From Modestobacter versicolor (GTDB lineage: Bacteria > Actinomycetota > Actinomycetes > Mycobacteriales > Geodermatophilaceae): DNA of 64,000 bases. Of this stretch, positions 12,288-49,748 are shown in pieces (position 1 is the stretch's first letter; every line of letters starts with the position of its first letter). Below the pieces are notes generated by a model. It was not told the DNA's origin and ran no database searches. It saw only the letters and a program-made list of their open reading frames with translations. Both the position numbers and the translations under genes were made by a program. The stretch spans positions 2,976,001 to 3,040,000 of the forward strand of contig NZ_JACIBU010000001.1 in NCBI RefSeq assembly GCF_014195485.1, read 5' to 3'.

Positions 12288-12291
12288 CTCG

Positions 12292-13641: not shown

Positions 13642-15358
<1,717 letters not shown>

Positions 15359-15359
<1 letters not shown>

Positions 15360-18772: not shown

Positions 18773-23958
<5,186 letters not shown>

Positions 23959-28968: not shown

Positions 28969-28992
28969 CCCCGAGGTGCGCCTGCGGGTACT

Positions 28993-29021
28993 TCACCGCT
29001 AAGGCAGTTTGCCGCTAGGGT
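28993..29021 (+). promoter_or_regulatory. Operon A promoter with TCACCGCTAA element
   Basis: TCACCGCTAA (28993-29002) lies 13 bases before the -10-like TAGGGT (29016-29021), that is, at the -35 position. Six bases separate TAGGGT from the ATG of carbamate kinase and there is no ribosome site, which implies a leaderless transcript. The same 10-mer, also placed before a TAGCGT, precedes the FdrA operon (41452-41461), and it occurs upstream of the second molybdenum hydroxylase operon (45208-45217). Confidence 0.65.
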
Positions 29022-29027
29022 CGTGCG

Positions 29028-29996
29028 ATGACCCTCCCCCGCCGCGTCGTCATCGCGCTCGGGGGCAACGCCATGACCGGCCCCGACGGGTCGGCCACCC
29101 CCGGCGCCCAGCGGGACGCGATCGCGCAGGCCGCACAGCACGTCGCCGCCGTCGTCGGCACCGGGACAGAGGTCGTGCTCACCCACGGCAACGGCCCGCA
29201 GGTCGGGAACCTGCTGGTCAAGAACGAGCTGGCCGCCCACGAGGTGCCGCCGGTCCCGCTGGACTGGAACGTGGCCCAGACCCAGGCCACCATCGGCTTC
29301 ACCCTCGCCGACGAGCTGGACGCCGCGCTCGCCGCCCGGGGTCTGGGCCAGCGCACCGCCGCCCTCGTCACCCGCACCCTGGTCGACCCGGCCGACCCCG
29401 GGTTCACCGACCCCACCAAGCCCGTCGGCCGCTACCTGCCCCGCGAGGAAGCCCAGCGGTTCATCGCCCTGGGCCAGCGCTGGGAGGACCGCGGCGACCG
29501 CGGCTGGCGGCGGGTCGTCGCCTCGCCCGAGCCGCGGTCGGTGGTCGACGCACCCGCGATCGCGGCGCTGAGCGCGGCGGGCTTCGTCGTCGTGTGCGCC
29601 GGGGGTGGCGGCGTCCCGGTGGTGGACGACGGCCGCGACCACGCGGGCGACGCGACCGCGCTGCGCGGCATCGAGGCCGTCATCGACAAGGACCTCACCG
29701 CCGCGCTGCTCGCCTCCGAGCTGGGCGCCGACACCCTCGTCATCGCCACCGACGTCGCGCACGTCATGGTCGACTTCGGCACGCCGACCGCCCGTCCGCT
29801 GGGCCGGGTGACCGCCGCCGAGCTGCGCGGGCTCGCGGCGGCCGGCCAGTTCGCGCGCGGCTCGATGGGCCCGAAGGTCGAGGCCGTGCTGCGCTTCGTC
29901 GAGTCCGGGGGCACCCGCGCCGTCATCACGTCCCTGGAGCACATCTCCGACGCCGTCAGCGGTGACGACGTCGGCACCGTCCTCACCGCCGAGTAG
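29028..29996 (+). CDS. Carbamate kinase
   Basis: A 322-residue kinase of the amino acid kinase fold (family ArcC/AllK). Motifs: VIALGGNAM at the start, LTHGNGPQVGNLL, CAGGGGVPVVDDG, IDKDLTAALLASELGADTLVI and ARGSMGPKVEAVLRF. The physiological direction is usually carbamoyl phosphate plus ADP to ATP, CO2 and ammonia. No arginine deiminase or ornithine carbamoyltransferase genes are nearby. Instead a ring-opening amidohydrolase gene starts 12 bases later and an FdrA/DUF1116 pair lies at 38555-41423. The carbamoyl phosphate therefore probably comes from a transcarbamylase acting on a ureido compound. Confidence 0.93.
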   Translation: MTLPRRVVIALGGNAMTGPDGSATPGAQRDAIAQAAQHVAAVVGTGTEVVLTHGNGPQVGNLLVKNELAAHEVPPVPLDWNVAQTQATIGFTLADELDAALAARGLGQRTAALVTRTLVDPADPGFTDPTKPVGRYLPREEAQRFIALGQRWEDRGDRGWRRVVASPEPRSVVDAPAIAALSAAGFVVVCAGGGGVPVVDDGRDHAGDATALRGIEAVIDKDLTAALLASELGADTLVIATDVAHVMVDFGTPTARPLGRVTAAELRGLAAAGQFARGSMGPKVEAVLRFVESGGTRAVITSLEHISDAVSGDDVGTVLTAE

Positions 29997-30008
29997 AAGG
30001 AAGAACCA

Positions 30009-31112
30009 GTGCCTGCACCGATCGAGGTCCGCAAGGTCCCGCTGCACAACGTCAGCGACGCCTCCGAGCTCGCCGAGCTCATCGACTCCGGCGTCATGGA
30101 CGCCGACCGGGTCGTCGCCGTCATCGGCAAGACCGAGGGCAACGGCGGGGTCAACGACTACACCCGGATCATCGCCGACCGCGCGTTCCGCGAGGTGCTG
30201 CTGGAGAAGGGGTCGCGCAGCAAGGAGGAGGTCGGCGAGATCCCGATCGTCTGGTCCGGCGGCACGGACGGCGTCATCAGCCCGCACGCCACCATCTTCG
30301 CCACGCTGCCCGAGGACTCGGTCGAGAAGACCGACGAGCCGCGGCTGACCGTCGGGTTCGCGATGAGCGAGGTGCTGCTGCCCGAGGACATCGGCCGGCT
30401 CACCATGGTCGAGAAGGTCGCCGAGGGCGTGCGCCGGGCGATGGCCGAGGCCGGCATCACCGACCCCGCCGACGTCCACTACGTGCAGACCAAGACGCCG
30501 CTGCTGACCATCGAGACAATCCGCGAGGCCAAGTCCCGCGGCCAGGAGACGTACTACGACGAGCCGCACGGCTCGATGGACCTCTCCAACGGCACCACCG
30601 CCCTGGGCATCGCGCTGGCGCTCGGCGAGATCGAGATGCCGGAGCAGAAGCAGGTCATGCGCGACTTCTCGCTGTTCAGCGCGGTCGCGTCCTGCTCGTC
30701 CGGCGTGGAGCTGGACCGGGCGCAGATCGTCGTCGTCGGCAACGCCCGCGGGCACGGCGGCGCCTACCGGATCGGCCACTCGGTGATGAAGGACGCGCTG
30801 GACCAGGACGGCATCTGGGACGCCATCCGCAACGCCGGGCTCGACCTGCCCGAGCGGCCGCGCACCAGCGACCTGGGCGACAAGCTGGTCAACGTCTTCC
30901 TCAAGTGCGAGGCCGACCCGACCGGCTACGTGCGCGGCCGGCGCAACGCGATGCTCGACGACTCCGACGTCTTCTGGCACCGGCAAATCAAGGCGACCGT
31001 GGGCGGCGTCGCCGCGTCGGTGACCGGCGACCCGGCGGTGTTCGTGTCGGTGGCCGCGGTGCACCAGGGCCCCTCCGGCGGCGGCCCGGTCGCCGCCATC
31101 GTCACGGCGTAG
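30009..31112 (+). CDS. Ring-opening amidohydrolase, barbiturase/cyanuric acid hydrolase family
   Basis: A 367-residue protein with AGGAAG before its GTG start. The family's three-repeat design with one Lys/Ser pair per repeat is visible: Lys41 (IGKTEGNGG) with Ser83 (WSGGTDGV), Lys162 (VQTKTPLL) with Ser230/231 (ASCSSGVE), and Lys328 (RQIKATVGG) with Ser356 (GPSGGGPVA). Members open barbiturate to ureidomalonate or cyanuric acid to carboxybiuret; sequence alone does not separate the two with certainty. The setting next to carbamate kinase, with no biuret or allophanate hydrolase in the window, favours a barbiturase-like reaction yielding a ureido acid. A strong terminator follows. Confidence 0.9.
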
Positions 31113-31119
31113 CCGGGAG

Positions 31120-31150
31120 GACGCCGGCCGGGCTGCGCCCGGCCGGCGTC
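31120..31150. terminator. Bidirectional terminator between operon A and the LCP gene
   Basis: A perfect 13-base stem (GACGCCGGCCGGG with CCCGGCCGGCGTC) and loop CTGCG starts 7 bases after the amidohydrolase stop and runs into the last codon of the convergent LCP gene. It should stop transcription from both sides. Confidence 0.8.
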
Positions 31151-32660
31151 AGGCGATGCAGCTGGTGTCCTCCGCGGTGCGCTCGCTGGTGGCGTAGGTG
31201 CCGTCGGTCGGGGTGGCGACGGGCGGCGTGACGGCCACGCCGACGCCGGTGAAGTCCGAGCCCAGCACGAGCTGCACGGTGCCCTGGGGCAGCGCGTCGT
31301 CCACGGTCACCGCGGCGCCGGGCACCTGCGCGGCGACCGCGGCGGCCAGCGCCTCGTCGCCGGCGGCCGCGCTGATCGTGGTGACGTCGGCGGCGTCGGC
31401 GTTGCCCCCGCTGCTGGCGACGAACCCGGCGGCGCTGAGCTCGTCGGCGGTGGTCGCGGCGGCGCCGGCCACCCCGGAGCCGTTGAGGACGCTCACCGTG
31501 ACGTCGCCGGGGTCGGCGGCCTCGACCGCCGGTGCCGCGTCGGCCGGCTCGGGGTCAGCGCTGAGCGAGGCGAAGAAGGCCTTCAGCGCGTCGGGGTCGG
31601 CCGGCTCCAGCACCAGGCCGGCGTCCTCCCGGGCGTCCTTGAGCCCGGGGATGGTCTGGAAGGTGATGGCGCCGGGCTGCACGGCCTGCATCTGCGCGGC
31701 CAGGTCCAGCAGGCTCAGCCCCTCGTCGACGGTGACGCTGTCGCCGACCTGCTCGATGACCTGACGCTGCTTGACCGGGTTGAGCAGCACGCCCGACGAG
31801 AGCACGTTGCGGATCAGACCCGCCAGGAACACCTGCTGGCGGACCTGCCGGTCGATGTCCGTGCGCGGCAGACCGTCACGCTGCCGGACGAACTCGAGCG
31901 CATCGGCACCGCTGATCGTCTGGACGCCTGCCTGGAAGTCCGCCCCGGAGTTCACGTCCGAGGTCGCGTTGCACAGGTTCACCTCCACGCCGCCGACGAT
32001 CGAGCTGATGTTGATGAAGCCGAGCAGGTTGACCTCGGCGTAGTGGTCGATCTGCACGCCGGTGGCGCCGCTGATGGTCTGGATCAGCAGCTGGGCGCCG
32101 GCTGCCTGCTTGTCCGCCTCCGACCCGCTGGCGTCGTTGTAGCCGCGGCCGAAGGCGGAGTTCAGCTTCGCCTCCCCGTACCCGGGGATCGACACGTAGA
32201 GGTCGCGGGGGATGGAGACGAAGGCCGCCGCCGACCCGTCGGCCGGGATGTGCGCCAGGATCATCGTGTCGGTGTTGAGCAGCCCGTCCGGGTCGCCGGT
32301 GTTGAACTCCTGGACCTGCTCGGGGGTCAGCCCGGCGCGGGAGTCACGGCCCACCAGCAGCAGGTTCATCGCCTGCCCGGCGTGGTCGTCGCCCGACGCG
32401 TCGGTGTTGCCGTCGGCCGGGATGGCGTCGGTGCGGCCGACGCTCGCGTCGGCCACCCGCGCCAGGTACCAGCCCCACCCGCTGCCGGCGAGCACCAGCA
32501 CGGCGAGGACGCCGGACAGCGCCCGGACCGCCACGACCAGCCTCCGGGGCGTGCCCGGCCGGGACCGGGCGGCGTGCGCGGCGCTGCGTCCGGCCCGCGG
32601 GTCCCGCCGCGGGTCCAGCCGCGGGGGCAGGGTCGGTCCGGTGGGCTCCTCGCGCGGCAT
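31149..32660 (-). CDS. LytR-CpsA-Psr (LCP) family cell-wall glycopolymer ligase with LytR_C domain
   Basis: A 503-residue protein. A basic, Pro-rich cytoplasmic N-terminus (about 1-43) precedes one membrane helix (about 44-66). The LCP domain spans about 95-325 and includes NLLLVGRDSRAG, LNTDTMILAHIP, SIPRDLYVSIPGYGEAKLNSAF and FVRQRDGLPRTDIDRQVRQQ, with the family's catalytic arginines and aspartates. A LytR_C domain (VTVSVLNGSGVAGAAATTADEL) follows near 400-485. LCP enzymes transfer polyprenyl-linked glycopolymers (arabinogalactan or teichoic-type) to peptidoglycan. It is a single gene facing operon A. Confidence 0.93.
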   Translation of the reverse strand: MPREEPTGPTLPPRLDPRRDPRAGRSAAHAARSRPGTPRRLVVAVRALSGVLAVLVLAGSGWGWYLARVADASVGRTDAIPADGNTDASGDDHAGQAMNLLLVGRDSRAGLTPEQVQEFNTGDPDGLLNTDTMILAHIPADGSAAAFVSIPRDLYVSIPGYGEAKLNSAFGRGYNDASGSEADKQAAGAQLLIQTISGATGVQIDHYAEVNLLGFINISSIVGGVEVNLCNATSDVNSGADFQAGVQTISGADALEFVRQRDGLPRTDIDRQVRQQVFLAGLIRNVLSSGVLLNPVKQRQVIEQVGDSVTVDEGLSLLDLAAQMQAVQPGAITFQTIPGLKDAREDAGLVLEPADPDALKAFFASLSADPEPADAAPAVEAADPGDVTVSVLNGSGVAGAAATTADELSAAGFVASSGGNADAADVTTISAAAGDEALAAAVAAQVPGAAVTVDDALPQGTVQLVLGSDFTGVGVAVTPPVATPTDGTYATSERTAEDTSCIA

Positions 32661-32752
32661 GGCCAGCCTCCAGCAGTCCCCGTGACCCGGCGGTGATCGT
32701 CGGCCCGAACCTATCGGTCCAGGTCAACCGGGTAGCGGCACCACCCGGGCGG

Positions 32753-33793: not shown

Positions 33794-33832
33794 GCGCGCA
33801 GCCTGCCGTCCCGACGTTGCCGCCGTGTTGCC

Positions 33833-34255: not shown

Positions 34256-34337
34256 CAGGGGGACCTCCGGAGGATCGGGGACGACCCACCCTCGGTACCC
34301 CGCGACGGCCGCCCAGACGACGACCCGCGTCACACCG

Positions 34338-35117: not shown

Positions 35118-35243
35118 GTGGGGGTGCAAGGCGGGCGGGTGGTGCGGTGTTCCGTTGCGCCACACCAGCGTGAGCGGGTGGTTCCTCTAGGTTGTCAGCG
35201 GGTCCGGGGGTGGCCCGCGCCCGGCCGGACGAGGAGCACAGCG

Positions 35244-38128: not shown

Positions 38129-38200
38129 GTGGTCAGGCAGATCCTCCCATCCGTCGCTGGCGATGCCCTGTGGGGCACGTCGGGCTGGGCGGCCCCGGGC

Positions 38201-38467: not shown

Positions 38468-38554
38468 GGGGTCCCCCTCCGTCGACGTCGTCACGCCGCA
38501 CTACCCGGTGGCCGAGCTCGCACCCCCGCACCCCGAAGATGGCCATCTCCGGGG

Positions 38555-39970
38555 TCAGGAGGCGGCGCGGGACTCCTCGGCGAGGGCGGCCAGCGCCTGC
38601 TCGAAGCACTGCTGCGGCGGCTGCACCAGGCCCGCACCGACCTGACCGGTGCCGGCGACCCGGCCGGCCATCCCGGTGTTGATCTGCGGCAGCCAGCCGG
38701 TGCGGGCGACCTTGAGGACGTCGATCCCGGTCGGTGACCCGCGGAAGCCCATGATCGGGATCTGCATGGCCGGGTTCTCGGCCAGCGTCAGCTGGTACAT
38801 CCGCTCGGTGGTGGCCAGCGCGTCGGGGACGGTGCCGCCGACGAACCGGACGATCGCCGGGGCGGCGGCCATGGAGAACCCGCCGACGCCGTAGGTCTCC
38901 ATGATCGCGGAGTCGCCGATGTCGGGGTTGGCGTCCTCGGGGCCGTAGTCGCCGAGGAACAGCCCGACCGGGGTGTTGGCCGGCCCGGTGAACCAGCGGT
39001 CGCCGGTGCCGGCGGTCTGGATGCCGAACTCCGTGCCGTTGCGCGACATCACGGTGAGCATCGTCGAGCCGGGCACGCCGCGGGCGGCGTCCATGGCGAG
39101 CTTGGCGGTGGGCATGCCGAGGTTGAGGAAGAAGTGCTCGTTGCCGCCGATGAAGCGCAGCACCTCGGCGATGTCGGACGACGGGGCGTCGACGGCGACG
39201 ATCGACGGGGAGAGCTCGCGCAGCGCCATGAGCGAGCCTGCGCGGTTGCGGTTGTGCCCCTCGTCGCCCATCTGCAGCATCTGGGCCAGGATCGCCTTCA
39301 CGTCCAGCGGCTCGGTGCGCGAGCGCACGGCCTGCTGCAGCACCGGCCCGAGGACGTCGCGCATCCAGGCCAGCCGGGTCAGCACCTCCTCGTTGAAGGC
39401 GCCCATCCGCAGCACCTTGCCCAGGCCCTCGTTGAGGTTGCACCAGGCCTGCGCCCCGGTGGCGGGGTCCTGCAGGCACCACATCCACATCGACGGGCTG
39501 GTCACCCCGGCCATCGGCCCGACGGTGCGGTGGTGGTGGCACGGGTCGAGGGCGACCTCCCCGGCGGCGAGCACCCGTTCGGCGTCCTCGACGTCGGTGG
39601 CCCAGCCCTCGAAGAGGCAGGCGCCGATGAGCGCGCCGCGCATCGGGCCGGACGCGTTCTCCCAGGTCAGCGGCGGTCCGGAGTGCAGCAGCAGCCGGTC
39701 GGGCAGGTCGAGCACCTCGCGGGCCGGCCGGACGTCGACCAGCACCGAGCCCGCCGCGAGCACCCGCTCCACGGCGACCCGGTTGGCCGGGGCGCGCCGC
39801 GGGTCGAGCGCGAGCTGGGCGAGGTCGTCGGCGCTGCCGAAGCCCGGCGGGCGCCAGTCGACGTGGGTGACCGCCGTGCCCTGGTCGCGCAGCGCGGCGG
39901 AGAAGACCTCCACCCCGGCGGCGACGATCGACGGCGGGGCGGCGAGCAGACCGCCGAGGGGCTCAGACAT
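38555..39970 (-). CDS. DUF1116 protein, homologue of oxamate transcarbamylase subunit AllG (YlbE)
   Basis: A 471-residue protein of the DUF1116 family. Typical stretches: MRGALIGACLFEGWATDVEDAE, DPCHHHRTVGPMAGVTSPSMWMW, NEGLGKVLRMGAFNEEVLTRL and MSRNGTEFGIQ. In E. coli the homologue YlbE/AllG works with FdrA/AllF and YlbF/AllH as a transcarbamylase that splits oxalurate with phosphate into oxamate and carbamoyl phosphate. The gene starts 8 bases inside the end of the fdrA-like gene, so both are coupled. An AllH (DUF2877) gene is not seen in the window. The true substrate here may be another ureido acid. Confidence 0.88.
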   Translation of the reverse strand: MSEPLGGLLAAPPSIVAAGVEVFSAALRDQGTAVTHVDWRPPGFGSADDLAQLALDPRRAPANRVAVERVLAAGSVLVDVRPAREVLDLPDRLLLHSGPPLTWENASGPMRGALIGACLFEGWATDVEDAERVLAAGEVALDPCHHHRTVGPMAGVTSPSMWMWCLQDPATGAQAWCNLNEGLGKVLRMGAFNEEVLTRLAWMRDVLGPVLQQAVRSRTEPLDVKAILAQMLQMGDEGHNRNRAGSLMALRELSPSIVAVDAPSSDIAEVLRFIGGNEHFFLNLGMPTAKLAMDAARGVPGSTMLTVMSRNGTEFGIQTAGTGDRWFTGPANTPVGLFLGDYGPEDANPDIGDSAIMETYGVGGFSMAAAPAIVRFVGGTVPDALATTERMYQLTLAENPAMQIPIMGFRGSPTGIDVLKVARTGWLPQINTGMAGRVAGTGQVGAGLVQPPQQCFEQALAALAEESRAAS

Positions 39971-41423
39971 CGCTCTCTCCGATCAGCGACAGGGCGTACC
40001 GGGCGGCGGCGGCGTTGCTCGCGAAGACCGCGGCGCCGGCCTCGGCGAGGGCGTCGGCCTGGCGGGACCAGCCCTGCGGGTCGGCCTCGGTGCCGACCAG
40101 CGCGACGACGGCGGGCAGGCCGGCCGCCCGCAGCGCGGGCACCAGGCTGTGCGCCGGGTCGGGGTCCGAGCCGTGGCCCAGGACGACGTCGAGCAGCAGG
40201 ACGGCGGGCTCGCGGCCGGCGGCGAGGTTGCTGATCGCCTCCAGCCGCAACGTCGGGTCGATCATCGGGTGCGCGCGGCCCACGGTCAGCGCGTCGTCGC
40301 CGAAGTCGATGACCACGTGGCCGCGTGCCCGCAGGTCGGTGCCCAGGTCGAGCTCGGGGCGCAGCGGGGTGTTCGACCGGATGTCGCCCAGCACGGGTGC
40401 CGCGATGAGCATGGCCTCGTCGGCGAGGGTGCCGCCGGAGTAGAACCCCTTGAGCACGGCACCGGGCGGGACGGCGTCGGCGGTGCCCGGACGGCTCGGC
40501 CACTCCGGGACGGCGACGCCCAGGTCGCCCAGCAGGGCCTCGACCGCGGCGGTGAGGTCGGGCTGCTCGGCGCTGAGGACGGCGGAGCGGACCGGCACGG
40601 ACAGCCCGGCCGCCGCCTGCTGCACCCGCTCGGCGACGTCCGGCGCCGGGGGCTTGGAGACCAGCAGCACCCGCTCGGTGGCCGGGTCGGCGTCGAGCGC
40701 GGCGAGGGCGTCCAGGGTGGCCAGCCCGCCGACGGCGGCGGAGAGGTCGCGGCCACCGACGCCGAGCACGTGGGAGACGCCGACGCCGGCTGCGTCCAGC
40801 AGGCTGCTGACCTGCTGGGCGCCGGTGCCGCTCGCGGCGACCAGGCCGACCGGGCCGCGCCGGACGACGTTGGCGAAGCCGAGCGCGACGCCGGAGACGA
40901 TCGCGGTGCCGCAGTCGGGCCCCATGACCAGCACGCCGGCGTCGTGGGCCGCCTGCTTGAGCGCGATCTCCTGCTCGACCGGTACGCCGTCGCTGAACAC
41001 CAGCACCGAGCGGCCGGCGGCGATCGCGTCGGCGGCCTCGGCGGCCGCGTACGGGCCCGGGACGCTGATGATCGCCAGGGTGGGATCGGGGGCGTCGACC
41101 AGGCCGGCGCCGATGGTGCGGGGCGGGATGGTCTGCGCGTCGCCGGCCTTCTCGCGGTGGGCCAGGGCGGCCTCGACGGCGGCGACCGCGGCGGTCAGCT
41201 CGGCGTCGTCGGTGGCGGTGAGCGCGATGAGCAGCTGGTCGGGCTTGGGGTCGCCGTCCGGGGCGAGGCCCATGCCGGCGGCGAGCTCGAGGTTCAGCGG
41301 CGTCGCCATCGCGACCAGCACGGCGCTGACGCCGGGCCGGTCGCCGATCTCGCGGCTGACCTGCATCAACCGGACGGAGTCGGCGTAGACGCCACTGCGC
41401 AGGGAGACGTGCCGGGGGTTCAC
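39963..41423 (-). CDS. fdrA: FdrA-family protein, homologue of oxamate transcarbamylase subunit AllF
   Basis: A 486-residue protein with the succinyl-CoA-synthetase-like fold of FdrA. Visible stretches: SLRSGVYADSVRLMQVSREI at the N-terminus, GLVAASGTGAQQVSSLLDAAGVG, VMGPDCGTAIVSG, LKGFYSGGTLADEAMLI, VIDFGDDALTVGRAHPMIDPTLR and LLLDVVLGHGSDPDP. It is the first gene of operon B. The GTG start has no ribosome site and lies 8 bases after a TAGCGT -10, so the mRNA is probably leaderless. The shared 10-mer TCACCGCTAA sits upstream at the -35 position. Together with DUF1116 it would form carbamoyl phosphate for the carbamate kinase of operon A. Confidence 0.9.
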   Translation of the reverse strand: MNPRHVSLRSGVYADSVRLMQVSREIGDRPGVSAVLVAMATPLNLELAAGMGLAPDGDPKPDQLLIALTATDDAELTAAVAAVEAALAHREKAGDAQTIPPRTIGAGLVDAPDPTLAIISVPGPYAAAEAADAIAAGRSVLVFSDGVPVEQEIALKQAAHDAGVLVMGPDCGTAIVSGVALGFANVVRRGPVGLVAASGTGAQQVSSLLDAAGVGVSHVLGVGGRDLSAAVGGLATLDALAALDADPATERVLLVSKPPAPDVAERVQQAAAGLSVPVRSAVLSAEQPDLTAAVEALLGDLGVAVPEWPSRPGTADAVPPGAVLKGFYSGGTLADEAMLIAAPVLGDIRSNTPLRPELDLGTDLRARGHVVIDFGDDALTVGRAHPMIDPTLRLEAISNLAAGREPAVLLLDVVLGHGSDPDPAHSLVPALRAAGLPAVVALVGTEADPQGWSRQADALAEAGAAVFASNAAAARYALSLIGESDV

Positions 41424-41431
41424 CCCGCGGG

Positions 41432-41461
41432 ACGCTACCGGAGAAGGCCTCTTAGCGGTGA
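41432..41461 (-). promoter_or_regulatory. Operon B promoter with TCACCGCTAA element
   Basis: On the minus strand TCACCGCTAA (41461-41452) is followed after 14 bases by TAGCGT (41437-41432), then 8 bases to the GTG of the fdrA-like gene. Element, spacing and lack of a leader mirror the carbamate kinase promoter at 28993-29021. Confidence 0.65.
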
Positions 41462-41643
41462 GAGACCTCCGGCGTCATGCGATGGAACTCGCCGCGAGAC
41501 CCACGGGTCCGAGTCCCGGTACCTCGACGGTCTCGTGGCCCCGTGGCTGGCGGGCGCCGATGTCCACGCCCAGGTCTGCGGCTTCGACCTCCCGGCGGCA
41601 GGAGGCACCGAGCCGATCGCGGTCCGCCGCTCCTGCCGCCGGG

Positions 41644-44600
41644 TCACCAGCTGACCCGCGCCGAGGCCGAGCCCGTCCGCTCGATGTACTCGACCCGCAC
41701 CACGTGGGGGCCGGCCGTCACCGTCCGCGTGATCCGGGAGGTCCCCGCGGTGGTCCACCGATCGATGATGAGGACGTTGTCCAGCCAGACCCGCACTCCG
41801 TCATCGGTGACGGCGGTGAAGGTCTTGCTGCCGGCAGTGAAGGTGAACGTGCCGGTCCAGCGCGCCGTGAAGTAGTTCACCGGGACGCCGGTCGGGCCAC
41901 CTGTCCCCCAGCTCTTGTTGAGCGGCCCCGCCTCGCACACCGATCTCGCCGGCGTCCCCGCGAGCGTGGTGTTGCCGAAGTACTCGGCCCGGTACTGACC
42001 GGTCGCGCACGCCGCCGGGGGTGGCGGAGCGGTGGGCGTGGCCACCCAGCCCACCTTCGCGACCGCCTCCTGGTAGGAGTCGAAGAACTCCACGCGGACC
42101 TGGTGCCTCCCGGCGGTGAGCGTCCGAGCCGCGGTGAAGGTGGCCTCCTGGTCGCGCCACTGGTCGATCAGGATCGTCCCGTCGACGTACACCCGGATGC
42201 CGTCGTCCGCCGTGGCGGTGAACGTGTACGAGCCGGGGACGGCGAAGTCGAAGTTGCCGGTCCACCGCGCCGAGAAGTTGTCGGGGCCGACTCCGGTCGG
42301 CGCACCCATCGCCCAGTCCTTGTTCAACGGCCCCGCCTCGCAGCCCTGCGACGCAGGCGTCCCGGTGAGGGTCTTGTTGGCGAAGTACTGCGCCAGGAAC
42401 TGGGCGTCGAGGCAGGTCGTCGGCGGGGGCCCCGGGCCACCGACCGCGGCGTAGTTCGCGGTGTAGGTCGCCGCGGTCGCCCCGGCCACGATGTTGTGCG
42501 ACTGACCGCCACCGTCGGACCAGTTGGCGAACTGATAGGAGGTGCCGTTCAGCGACATCGGCGACGGTGCCGACAGGCTGCTGGTGCCACCCTCGATCAT
42601 CGTGGTGGTGAAGGGCGTCACCGCGGTCCGGGCGCCGAAGGTCAGCGACAGCCCCTGCGGGGCGGAGTTCACGGTGACCGCGACGGTCCGGGGGTCGAGC
42701 CGCCGCACGACCGTCGTCTTCGCTCCGGTCGAGTCCGTCGCAGTCAGCTTCAGGTCGATGTAGGCGGGGAACTCGTGGTCGACCGAGAGGAACGACCCGG
42801 AGGCCACGCCGGGGAAGGTCTGCAGTGGGTGGGCATGACAGGCATCCGGGCAGTGCTGGAGAACCGTCTCCCAGCTCAGCGCGCTCGCCGGGAGCACGCC
42901 GTCCTGCGGATCGGTGGCTGACCCCGTGAAGGTGATGGTGTCACCGACCTTCCAGTTCGCGCCTGCCGCCGGGGTGTTGATGACCGGGACCGGCGCCGTG
43001 CTGTTCGGCGGCGGCGGCGCCCCCACCCAGCTCACCTTGGCGACGGCCTCCTGGTAGGCGTCGTAGAACTCCACGCGGACCTGGTGCGTCCCGGCAGTCA
43101 GGGCCCGGGCCGCGGTGAAGGTGGCCTCCTGGTCGCGCCACTGGTCGATGAGGACCGTGCCGTCGATCCACACCCGGATGCCGTCGTCGGCCTGGGCGGT
43201 GAAGGTGTACGTGGTCGCCGTCGGGAAGTCGATGGAGCCGGTGAAGCGGGCCGACCAGTTGTCCGCCGGGACACCGGTCGCGGGCGCGGCCATGACCCAG
43301 TCCTTGTCCAGCATCGGACCGGTCTCGCAGACCTTGGCGGCGGCGGTGCCGGTGAGCGTCGTGTTCGCGAAGTACTCCGCCGTGTACTGACCGGCCGCGC
43401 AGGTGCCCCCCGGCGGCGGGGGCGGCGGCGGGGGCGGGGGCGGCGGCGGGGGCGTGGTGCCGCCGCCGTAGGTGATGCGGCGGATGCTGCCGGTGATGTC
43501 GGCGTAGAAGAGCTCCCCGGCGGGCGACATCTCGAGGTCGACGGGTGCCCGGGCCGGCGAGACGAACGGCCGCGCCGACGCCGGGTTCGGCTGCCCGTCG
43601 GTGCCCAGCGTCATGACCCAGATGCAATCGCGGGCATAGTCGGCGAAGAAGACCGCGCCGTTGTACTCGGCGGGGTACGGGCTCCCCGTGGACCTCGCGA
43701 ACGCGACGCCCGAGGCCGATGACCCGTTGGCCGTGGCACAGGTGTCCGCGGCGTTCATCCTGGCGCCGTGCTGGTAGGAGACGACCGGTTTGGTGTCCAC
43801 GCCCGCCGCGTACAGGTCCTCGCAGATCTTCAGGTTCGTGTTGTCGTACTCGTTGTTCCTGACCGGCCCCTCGTAGCAGGGCCAGCCGAAGTTGGTGACG
43901 GCGGCGGTGGGGTTGGGGATGCGGTTGAGCTCCTCGCTCGTGGCCCAGCCCACGTCGCTGATCCACAGTTCGCTGGTTCCCGGGCGCACGGCCATGCGGA
44001 ACGGGTTCCGCAGTCCGTACGCGACGATCCGCCGGGCGTTCGCATCGGTCGCCGCCAGGTTCGGGTTGCCTGCCGCGGCCGCGCCCGTGGTGGGGTCGAT
44101 CCGGATGATCGTGCCGCTCAGCGAGGTCGGGTCTCCCGGCGTGCGGAGGTCCTGGGACCGGAGCGCGCCGCCCTCGGCGGTGGGCGGGGTCATGGTCCCG
44201 CCGGGGTCGCCGCACGGGTTCTTGGCGGGGTGGCCCGTCTGGCCGTAGTCGACGAAGTCGAAGCTGGCGCCGTCACCGCCGGAGGCGTAGAGCGCACCGT
44301 CGTTGCCGAAGACCAGGTCACCGGCGCTGTGGCTGGGGAACTGCTGGCACCAGTCGTGGATCAGGACCTGCGACGTCGTGGTGGCCGTTCCCGGGTTGGC
44401 GAGATCGAGCGTGAGCCGGACCAGCTTGCTGCTCACCACGCAGCCGTCGGTCGTCGCGCCGGGGGGGCTGGGGCAGGCGTCGTTCCACCTGGGGAGGACC
44501 GGCGCCCCGGGCAGCTGACCGTCGAAGGCGTACATCGCGTAGATGGCCGGCGTGGCGGGGAAGTTCGGGTCGACGGCCAGGCCCAGGAATCCCCGGTCCC

Positions 44601-44910
44601 AGAAGTCGTGGACCTCGCTGCGGAAGTCGGCGACCTGCGTCGCGGTCGTGTCGGTGAGACCGTCGAACATCTGGATGGTGCCGCGCTTCTCGGAGACGAA
44701 GACCTTCCCGTCCGGGGCGAACTTGACCGCGATCGGGTTGGCCAGGTTCCCGAACGCCGTCACCTCGGTGAAGCCGGCCGGGAGCGCGGCCGCCGCCGGC
44801 TGGGCTGTCTGGATCACCGACAGCACGGACACCGCCAGCAGGAGTGCGGCCGTGGCGGCCAGCCCTCGGGCGCGGCTGATCGACCCCGACGAACGCCGTG
44901 CACCGACCAT
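41644..44910 (-). CDS. Secreted glucose/sorbosone dehydrogenase-like protein with three PA14 domains
   Basis: A 1088-residue secreted protein. A signal peptide lies at about 1-41 (ending PAAAA). A PQQ-type glucose/sorbosone dehydrogenase beta-propeller spans about 45-490 (GKVFVSEKRGTIQMFDG, GFLGLAVDPNFP, LVFGNDGALYASGGDG, VAYGLRNPFRMAVRPGTSELWISDVGW). Then come a run of 14 prolines near 495-508, a PA14 domain (about 510-640), an Ig-like region (VPVINTPAAGANWKVGDTITFTGSATDPQDG) and two more PA14 domains (about 830-960 and 965-1088). PA14 modules bind carbohydrate. The protein probably oxidises or binds sugars outside the cell. It is monocistronic, with ATG preceded by GGGAGT. Confidence 0.88.
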   Translation of the reverse strand: MVGARRSSGSISRARGLAATAALLLAVSVLSVIQTAQPAAAALPAGFTEVTAFGNLANPIAVKFAPDGKVFVSEKRGTIQMFDGLTDTTATQVADFRSEVHDFWDRGFLGLAVDPNFPATPAIYAMYAFDGQLPGAPVLPRWNDACPSPPGATTDGCVVSSKLVRLTLDLANPGTATTTSQVLIHDWCQQFPSHSAGDLVFGNDGALYASGGDGASFDFVDYGQTGHPAKNPCGDPGGTMTPPTAEGGALRSQDLRTPGDPTSLSGTIIRIDPTTGAAAAGNPNLAATDANARRIVAYGLRNPFRMAVRPGTSELWISDVGWATSEELNRIPNPTAAVTNFGWPCYEGPVRNNEYDNTNLKICEDLYAAGVDTKPVVSYQHGARMNAADTCATANGSSASGVAFARSTGSPYPAEYNGAVFFADYARDCIWVMTLGTDGQPNPASARPFVSPARAPVDLEMSPAGELFYADITGSIRRITYGGGTTPPPPPPPPPPPPPPGGTCAAGQYTAEYFANTTLTGTAAAKVCETGPMLDKDWVMAAPATGVPADNWSARFTGSIDFPTATTYTFTAQADDGIRVWIDGTVLIDQWRDQEATFTAARALTAGTHQVRVEFYDAYQEAVAKVSWVGAPPPPNSTAPVPVINTPAAGANWKVGDTITFTGSATDPQDGVLPASALSWETVLQHCPDACHAHPLQTFPGVASGSFLSVDHEFPAYIDLKLTATDSTGAKTTVVRRLDPRTVAVTVNSAPQGLSLTFGARTAVTPFTTTMIEGGTSSLSAPSPMSLNGTSYQFANWSDGGGQSHNIVAGATAATYTANYAAVGGPGPPPTTCLDAQFLAQYFANKTLTGTPASQGCEAGPLNKDWAMGAPTGVGPDNFSARWTGNFDFAVPGSYTFTATADDGIRVYVDGTILIDQWRDQEATFTAARTLTAGRHQVRVEFFDSYQEAVAKVGWVATPTAPPPPAACATGQYRAEYFGNTTLAGTPARSVCEAGPLNKSWGTGGPTGVPVNYFTARWTGTFTFTAGSKTFTAVTDDGVRVWLDNVLIIDRWTTAGTSRITRTVTAGPHVVRVEYIERTGSASARVSW
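42129..43149 (-). repeat. Near-identical DNA repeat units in PA14 domains
   Basis: A 40-base stretch is identical at 42129-42168 and 43110-43149, coding for DQWRDQEATFTAAR in PA14 domains 2 and 1. Flanking sequence is also very similar. Identity at DNA level suggests recent duplication or gene conversion between domains; the third PA14 domain (41650-42010) is more diverged. Confidence 0.75.
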
Positions 44911-45290
44911 GACCGACTCCCGGGCTACGAGCTCTCCGACGCTGGCGCACCGGGCGTGCCGGAAGCTAGCGCGCCTCGGGCCGTTGCGGCACCGTTGCCC
45001 GGGCGCTTTTCACAGGGAACGTCCAGCTGCTCACGGCTCGCCGACCAGCAGTCACCCACAGTGCGGGCGGCGACGCCCGAGGTCGCCGATTCCGGCCCGT
45101 CCGGTGACGCTGCGCAGTCGTAGATCGCCAGCACGGCGAGCGCACCCGGCCCCGACCGACCGCTTCGCTGAGCCACTCGGGAAGGCGGCGAACGCCGTCA
45201 CGAAGATTTAGCGGTGAGGTACTTCCGGAGCACAGGAGCGGGTGCCAGAGTCATGCCTTCCCCCGTCGACCCGTGGAGGTGCCGCACCCG
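44911..45290. other. Divergent intergenic region with the TTAGCGGTGA element of operon C
   Basis: These 380 bases separate the sugar-dehydrogenase gene (minus) from the second molybdenum hydroxylase operon (plus). The 10-mer TTAGCGGTGA is at 45208-45217, 73 bases before the operon C start, and continues GGTACTTCCGG. In the mirror orientation it equals the elements at 28993 and 41452. A small open frame on the minus strand (44925-45176) has no ribosome site and unlike composition. I see no RNA gene. Confidence 0.6.
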
Positions 45291-46166
45291 GTGAAGCCCG
45301 CTCCGTTCGGCTACGCCGACCCCCGCTCGGTCGACGACGCCCTCGCCGTCCTGGTCGCCGAGGGCGAGGGCGCGAAGGTGCTGGCCGGGGGCCAGTCGCT
45401 GCTCCCGCTGCTGTCGATGCGCCTGGCCGCGCCGACCACGCTGGTCGACATCAACGGCGTGCCCGGCCTCGACGCGATCGACGCCTCGCCCGACGGCGTC
45501 CGGGTCGGCGCGCTGGTGCGGCACGCGCAGCTGCTGGCCTCCGCTGCCGCGGCCGGCGTCCAGCCGCTGCTGGGCCGGGCCACGGCGAACGTCGCGCACC
45601 CGGCGATCCGCAACCGGGGGACGACGGTCGGCTCCATCGCGCACGCCGACCCGTCGGGGGAGATGACCTCGGTGCTCGCGCTGACGGACGGGTCCGTCAC
45701 GGTCGCCACCCCGAGCGGCCGAGAGACGGTCGGCTGGCAGGACTTCTTCGTCGGGCCGCTGGAGACCTCGGTGCACGGGCCGGCCGTCGTCCTGGACGCC
45801 TTCTTCCCCGCGCTGCCGGCGCGCTCGGGCACCGCCTTCGCCGAGATCGCCCGGCGCAAGGGCGACTACGCGGTGTGCGGCGCGGGCGTCGTCGTCACCC
45901 TCGACGCCGACCGGCGGGTGACCTCGGCGCGGGCGTCCTACATCTCCGTCGGGCTGGTGCCCGAGGTGCACGACCTGACCGACGCCGTCGCGGGCCGGCC
46001 GGTCGACACCGCCGACTGGGCCGCTGCCGGAGAGCTGGCCCGCGGGCTGGTCGACCCCGACGGCGACCTGCACGCCAGCGCGGACTACCGGCGGCTGCTC
46101 GTGGGCACGCTCACCGAACGCACGCTGGCGGACGCTGCCCGTGAGGCAGCCGGGAGGACGGCATGA
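45291..46166 (+). CDS. Molybdenum hydroxylase FAD-binding subunit (CoxM-like), operon C
   Basis: A 291-residue protein. GTG 45291 is preferred because GGAGGT (45275-45280) precedes it and the protein then begins VKPAPFGYADP, the usual CoxM-type start; GTG 45273 would place this ribosome site inside the gene. Flavin motifs are VLAGGQSLLPLLSMRLA (about 30-47) and NRGTTVGSIAHADPSGEM (about 105-122). The C-terminal flavoprotein domain follows. It carries FAD and passes electrons to an external acceptor. It is the first gene of a four-gene operon with four-base overlaps. Confidence 0.92.
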   Translation: MKPAPFGYADPRSVDDALAVLVAEGEGAKVLAGGQSLLPLLSMRLAAPTTLVDINGVPGLDAIDASPDGVRVGALVRHAQLLASAAAAGVQPLLGRATANVAHPAIRNRGTTVGSIAHADPSGEMTSVLALTDGSVTVATPSGRETVGWQDFFVGPLETSVHGPAVVLDAFFPALPARSGTAFAEIARRKGDYAVCGAGVVVTLDADRRVTSARASYISVGLVPEVHDLTDAVAGRPVDTADWAAAGELARGLVDPDGDLHASADYRRLLVGTLTERTLADAAREAAGRTA

Positions 46167-46693
46167 CCCGAGCAGTGAGCACCGACACCGAGCGGACCGT
46201 CGTGGTCACCGTCAACGGTGTCCCACGCGAAGCCACCGTGCCGGTGCGCTGGCTGCTGTCCGACGCGCTGCGGCACGAGTTCGGGCTGACCGGCACGCAC
46301 GTCGGCTGCGAGCACGGGGTCTGCGGCTCGTGCACGGTGCTCGTCGACGGGCAGCCGACCCGCTCCTGCCTGGTGCTCGCCGTGCAGGTCGACGGGCACG
46401 AGGTCACCACGGTCGAGGGGCTGTCCCGGCCCGACCACCAGGGCGGGCAGGTGCTGCACCCGATCCAGGAGGCGTTTCGCGAGTGCCACGCCCTGCAGTG
46501 CGGGTTCTGCACGCCGGGCTTCCTGACCACGATCGCGGCCGGCCTGGACGCCCGCGACCCGTCGGTGGAGATCACCGACGAGGAGGTCGACGAGCTGGTC
46601 GGCGGCAACCTGTGCCGCTGCACCGGCTACGCCAACATCAAGAAGGCCTGCCGGCACGCGGCGGCGGCGATGCGCGACGAGGCGGCCCGGTGA
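46163..46693 (+). CDS. Molybdenum hydroxylase 2Fe-2S subunit (CoxS-like), operon C
   Basis: A 176-residue iron-sulfur subunit. The first cluster is VGCEHGVCGSCTVLVDGQPTRSC, with four cysteines in canonical spacing. The second is LQCGFCTPGF with NLCRCTGYANI. It lies between the FAD and Mo subunits with ATGA and GTGA overlaps. The N-terminal 15 residues are a non-conserved extension. It transfers electrons between molybdenum and FAD. Confidence 0.94.
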   Translation: MTRAVSTDTERTVVVTVNGVPREATVPVRWLLSDALRHEFGLTGTHVGCEHGVCGSCTVLVDGQPTRSCLVLAVQVDGHEVTTVEGLSRPDHQGGQVLHPIQEAFRECHALQCGFCTPGFLTTIAAGLDARDPSVEITDEEVDELVGGNLCRCTGYANIKKACRHAAAAMRDEAAR

Positions 46694-49098
46694 CCACGAA
46701 GTTCTTCGGCGAGCCGGTCCGCCGGCGCGAGGACGCCCGGCTGATCGTCGGCCAGGGCCGCTACCTCGACGACATCGGCTCCGGTGCCTACGCCGCCGCG
46801 TTCGTGCGCAGCCCGTACGCGCACGCCCGGGTGCTGGACGTCGACGTCACCGCCGCGCTGGACGTCGAGGGCCTGCTGGCCGTCTACACCTACGAGGACC
46901 TCACCGGCCCGATGGCCGAGCCGCTGCCGGTGCTCATCCCGCACCCGCAGCTCACCGCGCCGCGCACCGGGTACCCGCTGGTCAAGGACGTCGCCCAGCA
47001 CGTCGGCGAGCCGATCGTCATGGTGGTGGCCACCGACCGGTACGTCGCCGAGGACGCCGCGGCGCTGATCGCCGTCAGCTACGAGGAGCTGCCCGTGGTG
47101 GTCGGCGTCGACGCCGCCGAGGCCGCGGAGCACACCGTCCACGACGACGTCCCGGACAACGTGGCAGCCCGGCACCACCAGGAGACCGGGGACGTCGAGG
47201 CGGCCCTGGCCGCCTCGGCGCACACGCTGTCGTTCACCCAGTACTTCGAGCGCAGCGCGTCCATGCCGATGGAGGGCAAGGGCGTGCACGCCCGCTGGGA
47301 CGACGCGGACTCCTCGCTGCGGGTCTACTCCTCCACCCAGGCCTCGACGTCGGTGCGCGCGGCGATCGCCGCCAAGCTCGAGCTGTCGCTGGAGAAGGTC
47401 GAGGTCATCGCCCCGGACGTGGGCGGCGGGTTCGGCGTGAAGATCGTGCACCCGTGGCCCGAGGAGCTGCTCGTGCCGATGGCCGCTCGCCTGCTGGGCC
47501 ACGAGGTGAAGTGGACCGAGGACCGCCGCGAGCACTTCGTCTCCAGCGCCCACGAGCGCCAGCAGCGGCAGGAGATCACCGTCGGGTACGACGACGACGG
47601 GCGGATCACGGCCCTCGACGTCCTGGTCTGGCACGACAACGGCGCGTACACGCCCTACGGGATCATCGTCCCGATCAACACGGCCACCCAGCTGCTCGGG
47701 CCCTACGACATCCCGGTCTACCGGGCGCAGGTGTTCAGCGTCTACACCAACACCGTCGTCGTCACGCCGTACCGCGGCGCCGGGCGGCCGCAGGGCTGCT
47801 TCGCGATGGAGCGCACGATGGACCGGATCGCCCAGGAGCGCGGCATCGACCGGGCGCTGGTGCGCGAGCGGAACCTAATCCAGCCCGACCAGTTCCCCTA
47901 CGACTGGGGCCTGACGTTCCAGGACGGCCGGCCGCTGGTCTACGACTCCGGCGACTACCCCGGGATGATGGCCAAGCTCAAGGCGCTGGTCTCCTGGGAC
48001 ACCTTCGCCGCGCGCCGGGCCGACGCCGAGGCGCGCGGGAAGCTGCTGGGCATCGGGATGGCCCCCTACGTGGAGGGCACCGGGCCGGGGCCCTACGAGG
48101 GCGCGCACGTGCAGGTGCTGGGCAGCGGCAAGGTGCTGGTCTCCACCGGGCTCACCTCGCAGGGCCAGGGGCACGAGACGGTGTTCGCCCAGCTGGCGGC
48201 CGCCGAGCTCGGCGTCCCGATCGAGGACGTCGAGGTGACCACCGGCGACACCCGGCGGTTCGGCTACGCGGTCGGCACCTTCGCCTCCCGGGCCGCGGTG
48301 GTGAGCGGCAACGCGGTGGCGCTGGCCGCCCGCGGGGTGCGCGACAAGGCGCTGCGGATCGCCGCGGAGGTCCTGGAGGCGGCTCCCGAGGACCTGGAGA
48401 TCTCCGACGGCGTGGTCGGGGTCAAGGGGATCCCGGGGGCGACCATCCCGCTGCGCACGGTCGCGGTGTTGTCGAACCCGCTGCGCTACGCCTTCGACGA
48501 GGCGGCGCGGCAGGCGACCCAGTTCGCCGGGGCCTCCGACGACTCGAAGCCACCGGTCGCGGCCGGCGACGCGCCGGGCCTGGAGCACACCGACTACTAC
48601 TCCCCGCTGCGCTCGACCTTCGCCTCCGGCGCGCACGCCGTGGTGGTGGAGATCGACCCCGCGACCTGGGAGATCTCGATCGTGCAGTACGCCGTGGTGC
48701 ACGACTGCGGGAACATCATCAACCCGATGATCGTCGAGGGACAGGTGCACGGCGGGGTGGCCCAGGGCGTGGGCGGGGCGCTGTACGAGCGGATGGCCTA
48801 CGACCGCGACGGCCAGCTGACCAACGCCTCGTTCATGGACTTCCTGATGCCGTACGCCTCCGAGGTGCCCGACATCGACATCGACCACCAGTCGACGCCC
48901 TCCCCGCTGAACGCGCTGGGGATCAAGGGCGCCGGTGAGGCCGGCGTCATCCCGGGGTCGGCGGCGATCGCGTCGGCGATCGAGGACGCCGTGGGACGGC
49001 GGATCGCGGCGATGCCCATCTCGCCGTCCGAGCTGTACGACCTGGTGCGCTCCGACACCGAGCGCGTGATCAACAACCCGAGTGGAGTCATGGCGTGA
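46690..49098 (+). CDS. Molybdenum hydroxylase catalytic subunit (CoxL-like, PYRGAGR type), operon C
   Basis: An 802-residue large subunit. Pterin motifs are PDVGGGFGVKI (about 240-250), TSQGQGHETVFAQ, and the catalytic Glu750 in GIKGAGEAG. The active-site loop reads TPYRGAGRPQG (Pro360-Arg366). True CO dehydrogenase (form I) has AYxCSFR here, with the cysteine that binds copper; this protein has neither, so CO oxidation is unlikely. It belongs to the broad form II group whose substrates are mostly unknown. Given the shared promoter element with the ring-opening amidohydrolase and FdrA operons, I infer a nucleobase-like ring as substrate, for example uracil to barbiturate. Confidence 0.9.
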   Translation: MTTKFFGEPVRRREDARLIVGQGRYLDDIGSGAYAAAFVRSPYAHARVLDVDVTAALDVEGLLAVYTYEDLTGPMAEPLPVLIPHPQLTAPRTGYPLVKDVAQHVGEPIVMVVATDRYVAEDAAALIAVSYEELPVVVGVDAAEAAEHTVHDDVPDNVAARHHQETGDVEAALAASAHTLSFTQYFERSASMPMEGKGVHARWDDADSSLRVYSSTQASTSVRAAIAAKLELSLEKVEVIAPDVGGGFGVKIVHPWPEELLVPMAARLLGHEVKWTEDRREHFVSSAHERQQRQEITVGYDDDGRITALDVLVWHDNGAYTPYGIIVPINTATQLLGPYDIPVYRAQVFSVYTNTVVVTPYRGAGRPQGCFAMERTMDRIAQERGIDRALVRERNLIQPDQFPYDWGLTFQDGRPLVYDSGDYPGMMAKLKALVSWDTFAARRADAEARGKLLGIGMAPYVEGTGPGPYEGAHVQVLGSGKVLVSTGLTSQGQGHETVFAQLAAAELGVPIEDVEVTTGDTRRFGYAVGTFASRAAVVSGNAVALAARGVRDKALRIAAEVLEAAPEDLEISDGVVGVKGIPGATIPLRTVAVLSNPLRYAFDEAARQATQFAGASDDSKPPVAAGDAPGLEHTDYYSPLRSTFASGAHAVVVEIDPATWEISIVQYAVVHDCGNIINPMIVEGQVHGGVAQGVGGALYERMAYDRDGQLTNASFMDFLMPYASEVPDIDIDHQSTPSPLNALGIKGAGEAGVIPGSAAIASAIEDAVGRRIAAMPISPSELYDLVRSDTERVINNPSGVMA

Positions 49099-49748
49099 AC
49101 CTCGACGGCAGTGCGGTGCTCTCGGCGTCGCCCGAGCAGGTCTGGGCGGTGATCACCGACCCGGCGGTGCTGGCGCGGACCATCCCGGGCTGCGAGTCGC
49201 TGCAGCAGGTCGGCGAGGACAGCTACACGATGGTCGTCTCGGCCGGGGTCGGCGCGATCCGCGGGAAGTACGCCGGCGAGGTGCGGCTGTCCGACCTCAC
49301 CTTCCCGTCGTCCTACGTGATGCACGCGTCGGGCTCCGGCGGCCCCGGGTCGGTGCGGGCGGTGGTGCAGATCAACCTGGCGCCGTCCGAGGGCGGCACG
49401 GAGCTGACCTACTCGGCGGACGCCGTGGTCGGCGGCGCGGTCGCCGGCGTGGGCCAGCGGATGATCGCCGGCGTCGCGAAGCGGATGGCCGGGCAGTTCT
49501 TCTCCGCGGTGGACAAGGAGCTGGTCGAGCCCAACGTGGTCGCCGAGGTCGCGCCGGTGGCCGCCGACGTTCCCGCGGGAACGCCTGCGGCGGCCGCTCC
49601 GGTCAGCTACGCGAAGGCCCCGGCCGCCGCCGTCGCCGGTGGCTGGATCCCCACCGAGGCGCGACCCCTGCTGGTCGGCGCCGCCGGCGGCGGGGTGCTC
49701 ACCCTGCTCGGCGTCTGGATCGGCTACCTCCTCGGCCGCCGCAGCTGA
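49095..49748 (+). CDS. CoxG-like SRPBCC protein with C-terminal membrane anchor, operon C
   Basis: A 217-residue protein, GTG overlapping the catalytic subunit's stop. The SRPBCC/CoxG domain covers about 1-150 (LDGSAVLSASPEQVWAVITDPAVLARTIPGCESLQQVG; GKRMAGQFFSAVDKEL-like end). An Ala/Pro linker and one membrane helix at about 195-213 (LLVGAAGGGVLTLLGVWIGYLL) follow, ending in GRRS. CoxG in the CO dehydrogenase system recruits the enzyme to the membrane. This homologue probably anchors the molybdenum hydroxylase to the inner membrane so that electrons can enter the respiratory chain. Genes coxD, E and F are absent. Confidence 0.9.
   Translation: MNLDGSAVLSASPEQVWAVITDPAVLARTIPGCESLQQVGEDSYTMVVSAGVGAIRGKYAGEVRLSDLTFPSSYVMHASGSGGPGSVRAVVQINLAPSEGGTELTYSADAVVGGAVAGVGQRMIAGVAKRMAGQFFSAVDKELVEPNVVAEVAPVAADVPAGTPAAAAPVSYAKAPAAAVAGGWIPTEARPLLVGAAGGGVLTLLGVWIGYLLGRRS

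Follow-up and report, generated by a model that had tools for sequence, protein, structure and literature searches.

The window, a 64,000-nucleotide stretch of Modestobacter versicolor DNA (C1:2976001-3040000 on contig NZ_JACIBU010000001.1; window GC content 73%), contains three operons that probably constitute one regulon for the oxidative catabolism of uracil, in which ureidomalonate would be cut with phosphate by the enzyme AllFGH to supply carbamate kinase. We put the probability of this reading at about 0.77. The genome of origin (G000) is 4.59 Mb long and 99% complete. An initial annotation had named three gene groups in the window, and profile matches show that all three are present: carbamate kinase with barbiturase, AllG with AllF (FdrA), and a molybdenum (Mo) hydroxylase with CoxG. 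All of the named genes are open reading frames with high GC content at third codon positions, at essentially the coordinates first given; the four genes of the hydroxylase operon are likewise all there, but the start proposed at 45291 is only an alternative, since the open reading frame begins at 45273. The interpretation placed on these genes is supported by gene identity, co-occurrence, clustering, a shared upstream motif, and the contrast with Rhodococcus, all of which are comparisons of sequence.

In the proposed pathway, a uracil-type permease encoded elsewhere in the genome would import uracil, and the Mo hydroxylase would oxidize it to barbiturate, passing electrons via CoxG to quinone. 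Barbiturase would open the barbiturate ring to give ureidomalonate (3-oxo-3-ureidopropanoate). AllF, AllG, and AllH would cleave this compound, using phosphate, to malonamate plus carbamoyl phosphate, in the way that oxamate carbamoyltransferase acts on oxalurate. Carbamate kinase would then convert carbamoyl phosphate and ADP to ATP, NH3, and CO2. An amidase, a nitrilase, or HyuAB would free the second NH3 and yield malonate, which a CoA-transferase and a carboxyltransferase-like decarboxylase would convert to acetyl-CoA, and a PucR-type regulator would act through the shared motif. Barbiturase chemistry and the action of AllFGH on oxalurate are known from relatives, and we infer from gene content the uracil step, ureidomalonate as the substrate of AllFGH, the malonamate step, the fate of malonate, and the role of the regulator.

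Co-occurrence of the operons in relatives had been proposed as a check, and it proved near complete. It was counted in 246 class-level genomes, with a threshold of E <= 1e-150 for the Mo subunit and of 72% identity for barbiturase. Barbiturase was present in 58 of these genomes, AllG in 66, AllH in 59, and the Mo subunit in 58. The barbiturase search had matched 64 genomes, six of which were dropped (G031, G093, G100, and G122 at 36-42% identity, G094 with a weak stretch, and G023 with a 24-residue fragment). The barbiturase of G209, found in two pieces, was counted once, and weaker second matches (Mo subunit in G051 and G183; AllG in G068 and G007) were left uncounted. Barbiturase and the Mo subunit occur together in 57 of the 59 genomes that have either; G020 has barbiturase alone, and G023, an 80% complete draft with the barbiturase fragment, has the Mo subunit alone. 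Barbiturase is accompanied by AllG in 56 genomes and occurs without it in two, G014 (72% complete) and G206 (100% complete), while AllG occurs without barbiturase in ten. All four genes are present in 54 genomes. Fisher tests of co-occurrence gave p < 1e-41 with kinship ignored.

The genes are also clustered. Where both genes lie on one contig, barbiturase and the Mo subunit are at most 50 kb apart in 34 of 35 genomes, barbiturase and AllG at most 50 kb apart in 27 of 34, the Mo subunit and AllG at most 20 kb apart in 40 of 47, and AllG and AllH at most 3 kb apart in 53 of 54. Carbamate kinase was found in 74 of 80 named barbiturase loci and in 29 of the 30 loci obtained from the class-level barbiturase search. 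Nine cluster regions, selected for gene proximity and not at random, were read out. HyuA and HyuB are encoded in all nine, along with a PucR-family regulator and usually an NCS2 uracil-type permease (just 33% identical in G102). An amidase is present in four regions and a nitrilase-family protein in three, with a weak match in G161 and neither in G030; some regions also encode a family III CoA-transferase and a carboxyltransferase. The CoA-transferase, carboxyltransferase, HyuAB, and amidase or nitrilase would suit a path that ends in malonate and acetyl-CoA. The window also contains a 16S-23S-5S rRNA operon (18511-23957, minus strand), which may explain why, in relatives, many draft contigs break off some 5-7 kb ahead of the barbiturase gene.

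A shared sequence motif stands before all three operons. Its 17-bp consensus, TTAGCGGTGARGTACTT, was read from an upstream alignment of 13 carbamate kinase and 4 FAD-subunit stretches. With up to three mismatches allowed, it has three matches in the window, one per operon (0.04 expected); with four mismatches, two further matches appear, at 29688 and 41870. Elsewhere in the same genome, in 177.7 kb of scanned sequence (about 170 kb distinct), it occurs only upstream of the permease gene and hyuA, with three mismatches each. Apart from these two sites, the motif in the stretches scanned is thus confined to positions upstream of the three operons, as would suit a common control element. Across 119 loci (2.05 Mb), all 56 matches with up to two mismatches precede a pathway gene, at no more than 220 bp from its estimated start: carbamate kinase 27 (including the window), AllF 15, permease 8, FAD subunit 4, barbiturase 1, and HyuA 1. 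Permuted patterns (n=100) gave a mean of 0.05 matches and a maximum of 1. Eighteen of the 56 matches fall in stretches that defined the motif (11 carbamate kinase, 4 FAD-subunit, and 3 AllF sites) and 38 fall outside them. All 56 come from the window or from loci L092-L125 (Geodermatophilaceae and a few nearby metagenome-assembled genomes (MAGs)); loci of other families have none at this stringency. In some cases an AllF or permease site is located between two divergent genes, both of which it may serve. The motif resembles an operator and is probably bound by the PucR-type regulator; a scan of the upstream regions for inverted repeats gave nothing useful.

Within the operons, gene spacing is tight. 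Only 12 bp separate carbamate kinase from barbiturase, the AllG and AllF genes overlap by 8 bp, and each junction in the series FAD subunit, 2Fe-2S subunit, Mo subunit, and CoxG is a 4-bp overlap. The carbamate kinase scores 341 bits against TIGR00746 (below the cut-off of 358) and 289 bits against NF009007 (above the cut-off of 266), and AllF scores 391 bits against NF004760, below the cut-off of 433. The intervening genes encode an LCP protein, a 2OG-Fe oxygenase, OsmC, an SDR protein, a SpoIIE/GAF protein, and a glucose/sorbosone dehydrogenase with PA14. They look unrelated to the pathway and are absent from the nine compared clusters, except for counterparts of the SDR and SpoIIE/GAF genes in G048. 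The large glucose/sorbosone-dehydrogenase-like protein with PA14 repeats (41644-44910, minus strand) lies between AllF and the hydroxylase, and none of the nine clusters has a counterpart.

That the Mo hydroxylase oxidizes uracil to barbiturate is what we infer because of the permease, the barbiturase, and the barbiturase locus of R. erythropolis, where the counterpart of the Mo subunit is 61% identical. It is unlikely that this enzyme is instead a carbon monoxide (CO) dehydrogenase, or acts on another N-heterocycle, with a merely indirect link to barbiturase. Under the model NF040766, the Mo subunit does classify as aerobic CO dehydrogenase ('group 5'), with 1451 bits against a cut-off of 950. 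The accessible text of PMC13240472 describes CoxG as a menaquinone-binding protein that hands electrons to the quinone pool, states that CO dehydrogenase operons typically include it, and reports that Form II enzymes carry AYRGAGR and that Form II activity is still debated. In relatives whose sequence was read beyond the Mo subunit gene, CoxG is likewise encoded after it. The window protein lacks the Form I motif (A/S)YRCS(F/L)R and has PYRGAGRPQG instead; an AYxCSFR-type motif is likewise absent from all 26 tblastn segments taken from other loci. Of these, 23 have PYRGAGRPQG, the R. erythropolis one (L137) has PYRGAGRPQA, and the partial segments from L073 and L119 show neither motif. Moreover, the nearest solved structure is quinoline 2-oxidoreductase, and the hydroxylase is found in 57 of the 58 barbiturase genomes and at the R. 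erythropolis barbiturase locus. The window enzyme thus shares with Form II/'group 5' aerobic CO dehydrogenase-like Mo hydroxylases the CoxMSL and CoxG layout and a score above the NF040766 cut-off, and differs from them in its PYRGAGR motif, its linkage to barbiturase, and its proposed substrate, uracil.

The initial annotation had suggested that the FdrA/DUF1116 pair could split ureidomalonate. Both members are present, but they probably form, not a pair, but the usual AllFGH enzyme of three subunits, with AllH encoded 1.8 Mb away. All three subunits are therefore encoded, together with a carbamate kinase partner whose gene is preceded by the same motif. In the accessible part of PMC11326118, AllFGH of E. 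coli act on oxalurate and oxamate, and oxamate production is interrupted in every single mutant of the three. The window system resembles E. coli AllFGH with AllK (oxamic transcarbamylase and carbamate kinase) in its subunit families and its carbamate kinase partner. It differs in its separate AllG clade, in having no AllD family, in its linkage to barbiturase, in a proposed substrate that is one CH2 longer, and in the distance of AllH from AllFG.

It is quite unlikely that AllFGH here process oxalurate from purine (allantoin) breakdown, as the enzyme has been proven to do in E. coli (PMC11326118, in the text available), and that their proximity to barbiturase is incidental. Purines are probably degraded in this organism, since the window contains allantoinase, allantoicase, and urease genes and a xanthine dehydrogenase (XDH)-like Mo hydroxylase, and AllD-family proteins are slightly commoner in genomes with AllG (18 of 66, against 27 of 180; p 0.04). 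However, the AllD family (Ldh_2, PF02615) has no match anywhere in the own genome, which is therefore without a known oxalurate source, and even among AllG genomes only those 18 have a member above the cut-off. Allantoicase and urease provide an alternative route. Moreover, 56 of the 58 barbiturase genomes also have AllG, and the two share motif and neighborhood. Given the absence of AllD, the enzyme is described as oxamate-carbamoyltransferase-like and is not assigned as oxamate carbamoyltransferase. A FastTree analysis of 77 AllG sequences from retrieved loci, in which tblastn segments of fewer than 300 residues and duplicates were excluded and branch support was not considered, placed AllG of the barbiturase genomes in a single clade separate from E. 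coli AllG and YahG; G020 and other genomes without retrieved loci were not placed. Outside the clade are the AllG of eight genomes without barbiturase, the second copy of G068, and the sequence of G051, discussed below. Two genomes inside it have no counted barbiturase, G023 and G108, both 80% complete drafts.

Some further observations touch on these families. The purine-nitrogen block of the window (5822-16038) comprises the XDH-like Mo hydroxylase, allantoicase, allantoinase, and urease subunits with accessory genes, and is a separate route. At 14906-15199 (plus strand) it includes a match to the Rfam family 5_ureB_sRNA, antisense to the urease alpha gene, which may be just conserved coding sequence. 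E. coli K-12 has a second set of AllH-, AllF-, and AllG-like genes with a carbamate-kinase-like gene at yahE-yahI (L186:4926-10116), annotated without a substrate, and its YahG clusters with AllG from three actinobacterial genomes that lack barbiturase.

The handling of ureidomalonate can be compared between lineages. Six of the 80 named loci lack carbamate kinase, namely the four Rhodococcus-type loci (L131, L132, L137, and L133, the last of these filed as Rhodococcoides fascians) together with L094 and L138. A search of 33 genomes gave an AllG match in 28 (all 27 other named genomes and G020) and none in the four Rhodococcus-type genomes and G206; AllH turned up in 29 of 33, in all but those four Rhodococcus-type genomes. 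Some of the genomes searched share coordinates with genomes of the class-level set, so the two counts are not independent. The four Rhodococcus-type loci have barbiturase, a nearby uracil-type permease, and an amidase-like match (39-41%), and lack carbamate kinase. In R. erythropolis NBRC 15567 (L137), the order is barbiturase, amidase, class III aminotransferase, permease, Mo hydroxylase, and CoxG, with a complete Mo hydroxylase and with a CoA-transferase and a carboxyltransferase nearby. The gene at L137:12768-13991 had been considered PucR-like and was rejected, as Pfam identifies it as the class III aminotransferase. Another strain, R. erythropolis JCM 3132, is reportedly the source of the characterized barbiturase and of a hydrolytic ureidomalonase. 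That strain appears in the tree of PMC3758960, whose accessible text gives malonic acid and urea as the pathway products. The phosphorolytic set is thus missing where the hydrolytic enzyme is expected, and this contrast fits the suggestion in the initial annotation that ureidomalonate is handled like oxalurate. A similar pairing of a phosphorolytic cut plus carbamate kinase with a hydrolytic cut is described, in the accessible text of PMC12507026, for uric acid breakdown, where E. coli uses the carbamoyl-phosphate-forming YgeW (with YqeA) and C. difficile a hydrolase (UacY); the E. coli system differs in employing another carbamoyltransferase family in a reductive uric acid pathway.

The window system shares with the known oxidative pyrimidine pathway (uracil to barbiturate to ureidomalonate to malonate and urea) the barbiturase signature, and similar genes for permease, Mo hydroxylase, and CoxG, as well as malonate-type genes, stand at the R. 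erythropolis barbiturase locus. It differs in that ureidomalonate apparently undergoes phosphorolysis by AllFGH, with carbamate kinase, and not hydrolysis to urea by a ureidomalonase. We regard it as very unlikely that the pathway is oxidative while HyuAB or an amidase hydrolyzes ureidomalonate, leaving AllFGH and carbamate kinase to a later or different carbamoyl compound. HyuAB does occur in all nine cluster regions and its gene carries the motif, an amidase or nitrilase is found in several of these regions, and in R. erythropolis an amidase adjoins barbiturase with no AllG or AllH match. Yet ureidomalonate is the sole ureido compound of the known route, so that formation of malonate and urea would leave AllFGH without a substrate; the carbamate kinase gene immediately precedes that of barbiturase; and the Rhodococcus-type genomes without carbamate kinase at the locus also lack AllG and AllH in the genome.

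The ring-opening amidohydrolase had been proposed to be a barbiturase, and this identification holds at the level of sequence. It scores 625 bits against the solved Barbiturase (PDB 5hwe) and 329 bits against the best cyanuric acid hydrolase. The Bar-like signature given in the accessible text of PMC3758960 (Asn195, His321, Lys325, Val345, and Ser/Ala346 in AtzD numbering) is complete, with N194, H324, K328, V348, and A349 at all five positions as matched by hand in an AtzD alignment. The protein is 95-96% identical to that of several Modestobacter, Klenkia, and Blastococcus strains. It also exceeds the cut-off of the NCBIfam cyanuric acid amidohydrolase model (CyanAcHdlAtzD; 474 bits, cut-off 360), and comammox MAGs carry allFGHK next to triuret and biuret genes (PMC12625717, in the part accessible), but the complete signature, the Asn that stands where four aligned cyanuric acid hydrolases have Arg, the higher score to Barbiturase, and the uracil-type permease and malonate-type genes of the clusters make it highly improbable that a cyanuric acid hydrolase here degrades s-triazines with AllFGH splitting biuret-type products.

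Several points weigh against a phosphorolytic uracil pathway, in addition to the CO dehydrogenase and cyanuric acid amidohydrolase cut-offs passed and the slight excess of AllD-family proteins. The proposal is based on genes, and the enzyme activities are predicted. The co-occurrence counts are uncorrected for kinship, and the 58 barbiturase genomes carry 14 family labels, with 48 of them in just four. In G206, a genome listed as 100% complete, barbiturase and the hydroxylase are present and AllG and AllH are missing, and AllFGH are therefore not indispensable; in 47 kb read from this genome (L087-L089) there was no reference match for carbamate kinase, amidase, or HyuAB. The sole AllG match of G051, a barbiturase genome, lies outside the barbiturase-linked clade. 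Carboxyltransferase is enriched and not specific, occurring in 38 of the 58 barbiturase genomes and in 36 of the 188 others (16 of these from the order of the window), and was rejected as a pathway-specific marker despite a p of 1e-10. The Rhodococcus contrast comes from one lineage, in drafts of unstated completeness. In the own genome, the motif was found neither at the CoA-transferase operon nor at AllH, and the stretches read contained no amidase or nitrilase counterpart, so that the malonamate step would rest on HyuAB. For each ureidomalonate, one ATP can be recovered through carbamate kinase, and the hydroxylase can supply electrons to quinone, but net ATP gain is uncertain because HyuAB, which we take to belong to a group that uses ATP for amide hydrolysis, may consume ATP; the label 'energy-conserving' is thus unproven.

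Other pathway genes were located outside the window (Table 1). With AllH, the permease, the regulator, HyuAB, and the CoA-transferase operon found, most of the pathway is present, though scattered. Among specific models, the NCS2 permease scores best to RutG and then to uracil permease, both below the cut-offs, and HyuAB is most similar to caprolactamase subunits, far below the cut-offs of those models. An AccDA-type gene at L004:14581 was rejected as a pathway candidate, being only 36% identical, whereas a 70% homolog lies at C1:2407434. At 58019-60839 (minus strand) in the window, a class V aminotransferase gene adjoins genes for an ABC transporter ATPase and permease.

Table 1. Features of the proposed uracil regulon. 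Positions refer to the window unless preceded by C1, the contig.
Feature	Position	Strand	Remarks
Operator-like motif	28986..29002	-	2 mismatches; 25 bp upstream of carbamate kinase
Carbamate kinase	29028..29996	+	Predicted: carbamoyl phosphate + ADP -> ATP + carbamate
Barbiturase (ring-opening amidohydrolase)	30009..31112	+	Predicted: barbiturate -> ureidomalonate; PF09663, 493 bits
AllG-like (DUF1116), oxamate-carbamoyltransferase-like subunit	38555..39970	-	PF06545, 317 bits; PDB 3clq, 412 bits
AllF/FdrA-like subunit	39963..41423	-	PDB 3dmy FdrA, 238 bits
Operator-like motif	41452..41468	+	3 mismatches; 28 bp upstream of allF
Operator-like motif	45208..45224	+	0 mismatches; 48 bp upstream of FAD subunit gene
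FAD subunit, Mo hydroxylase (proposed uracil dehydrogenase)	45273..46166	+	
2Fe-2S subunit, Mo hydroxylase	46163..46693	+	
Mo-cofactor subunit, Mo hydroxylase	46690..49098	+	PYRGAGRPQG replaces CO dehydrogenase motif
CoxG (proposed electron route to quinone)	49095..49748	+	
AllH (third subunit)	C1:1220279-1220590		Near PucR gene and permease, 1.8 Mb from AllFG
Region with AllH (row above), permease, PucR regulator	C1 1.216-1.221 Mb		
CoA-transferase and carboxyltransferase	C1 2.406-2.409 Mb		66-70% identity to cluster members
HyuAB	C1 3.0635-3.0674 Mb		

The oxidative pyrimidine pathway dates from the 1950s and is termed rare in the accessible text of PMC3758960. No paper joining barbiturase to AllFGH and none naming a uracil dehydrogenase gene was found among the matches listed by a search that left the subscription literature mostly outside. 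On balance, we lean towards the wider view that oxidative uracil breakdown with a phosphorolytic step is common in Actinomycetes, with AllFGH as a ureidomalonate (malonamate) carbamoyltransferase and the PYRGAGR 'group 5' proteins as uracil dehydrogenase. The window provides candidate genes for the uracil-oxidizing step and suggests that ureidomalonate can be processed by a second chemistry, and these claims are open to straightforward assay and growth experiments with actinobacteria that can be cultured. If they are true, the recently identified AllFGH family would gain a new substrate and one set of CO dehydrogenase annotations would be wrong, as many of those in soil actinobacteria would then belong to pyrimidine-degrading enzymes.

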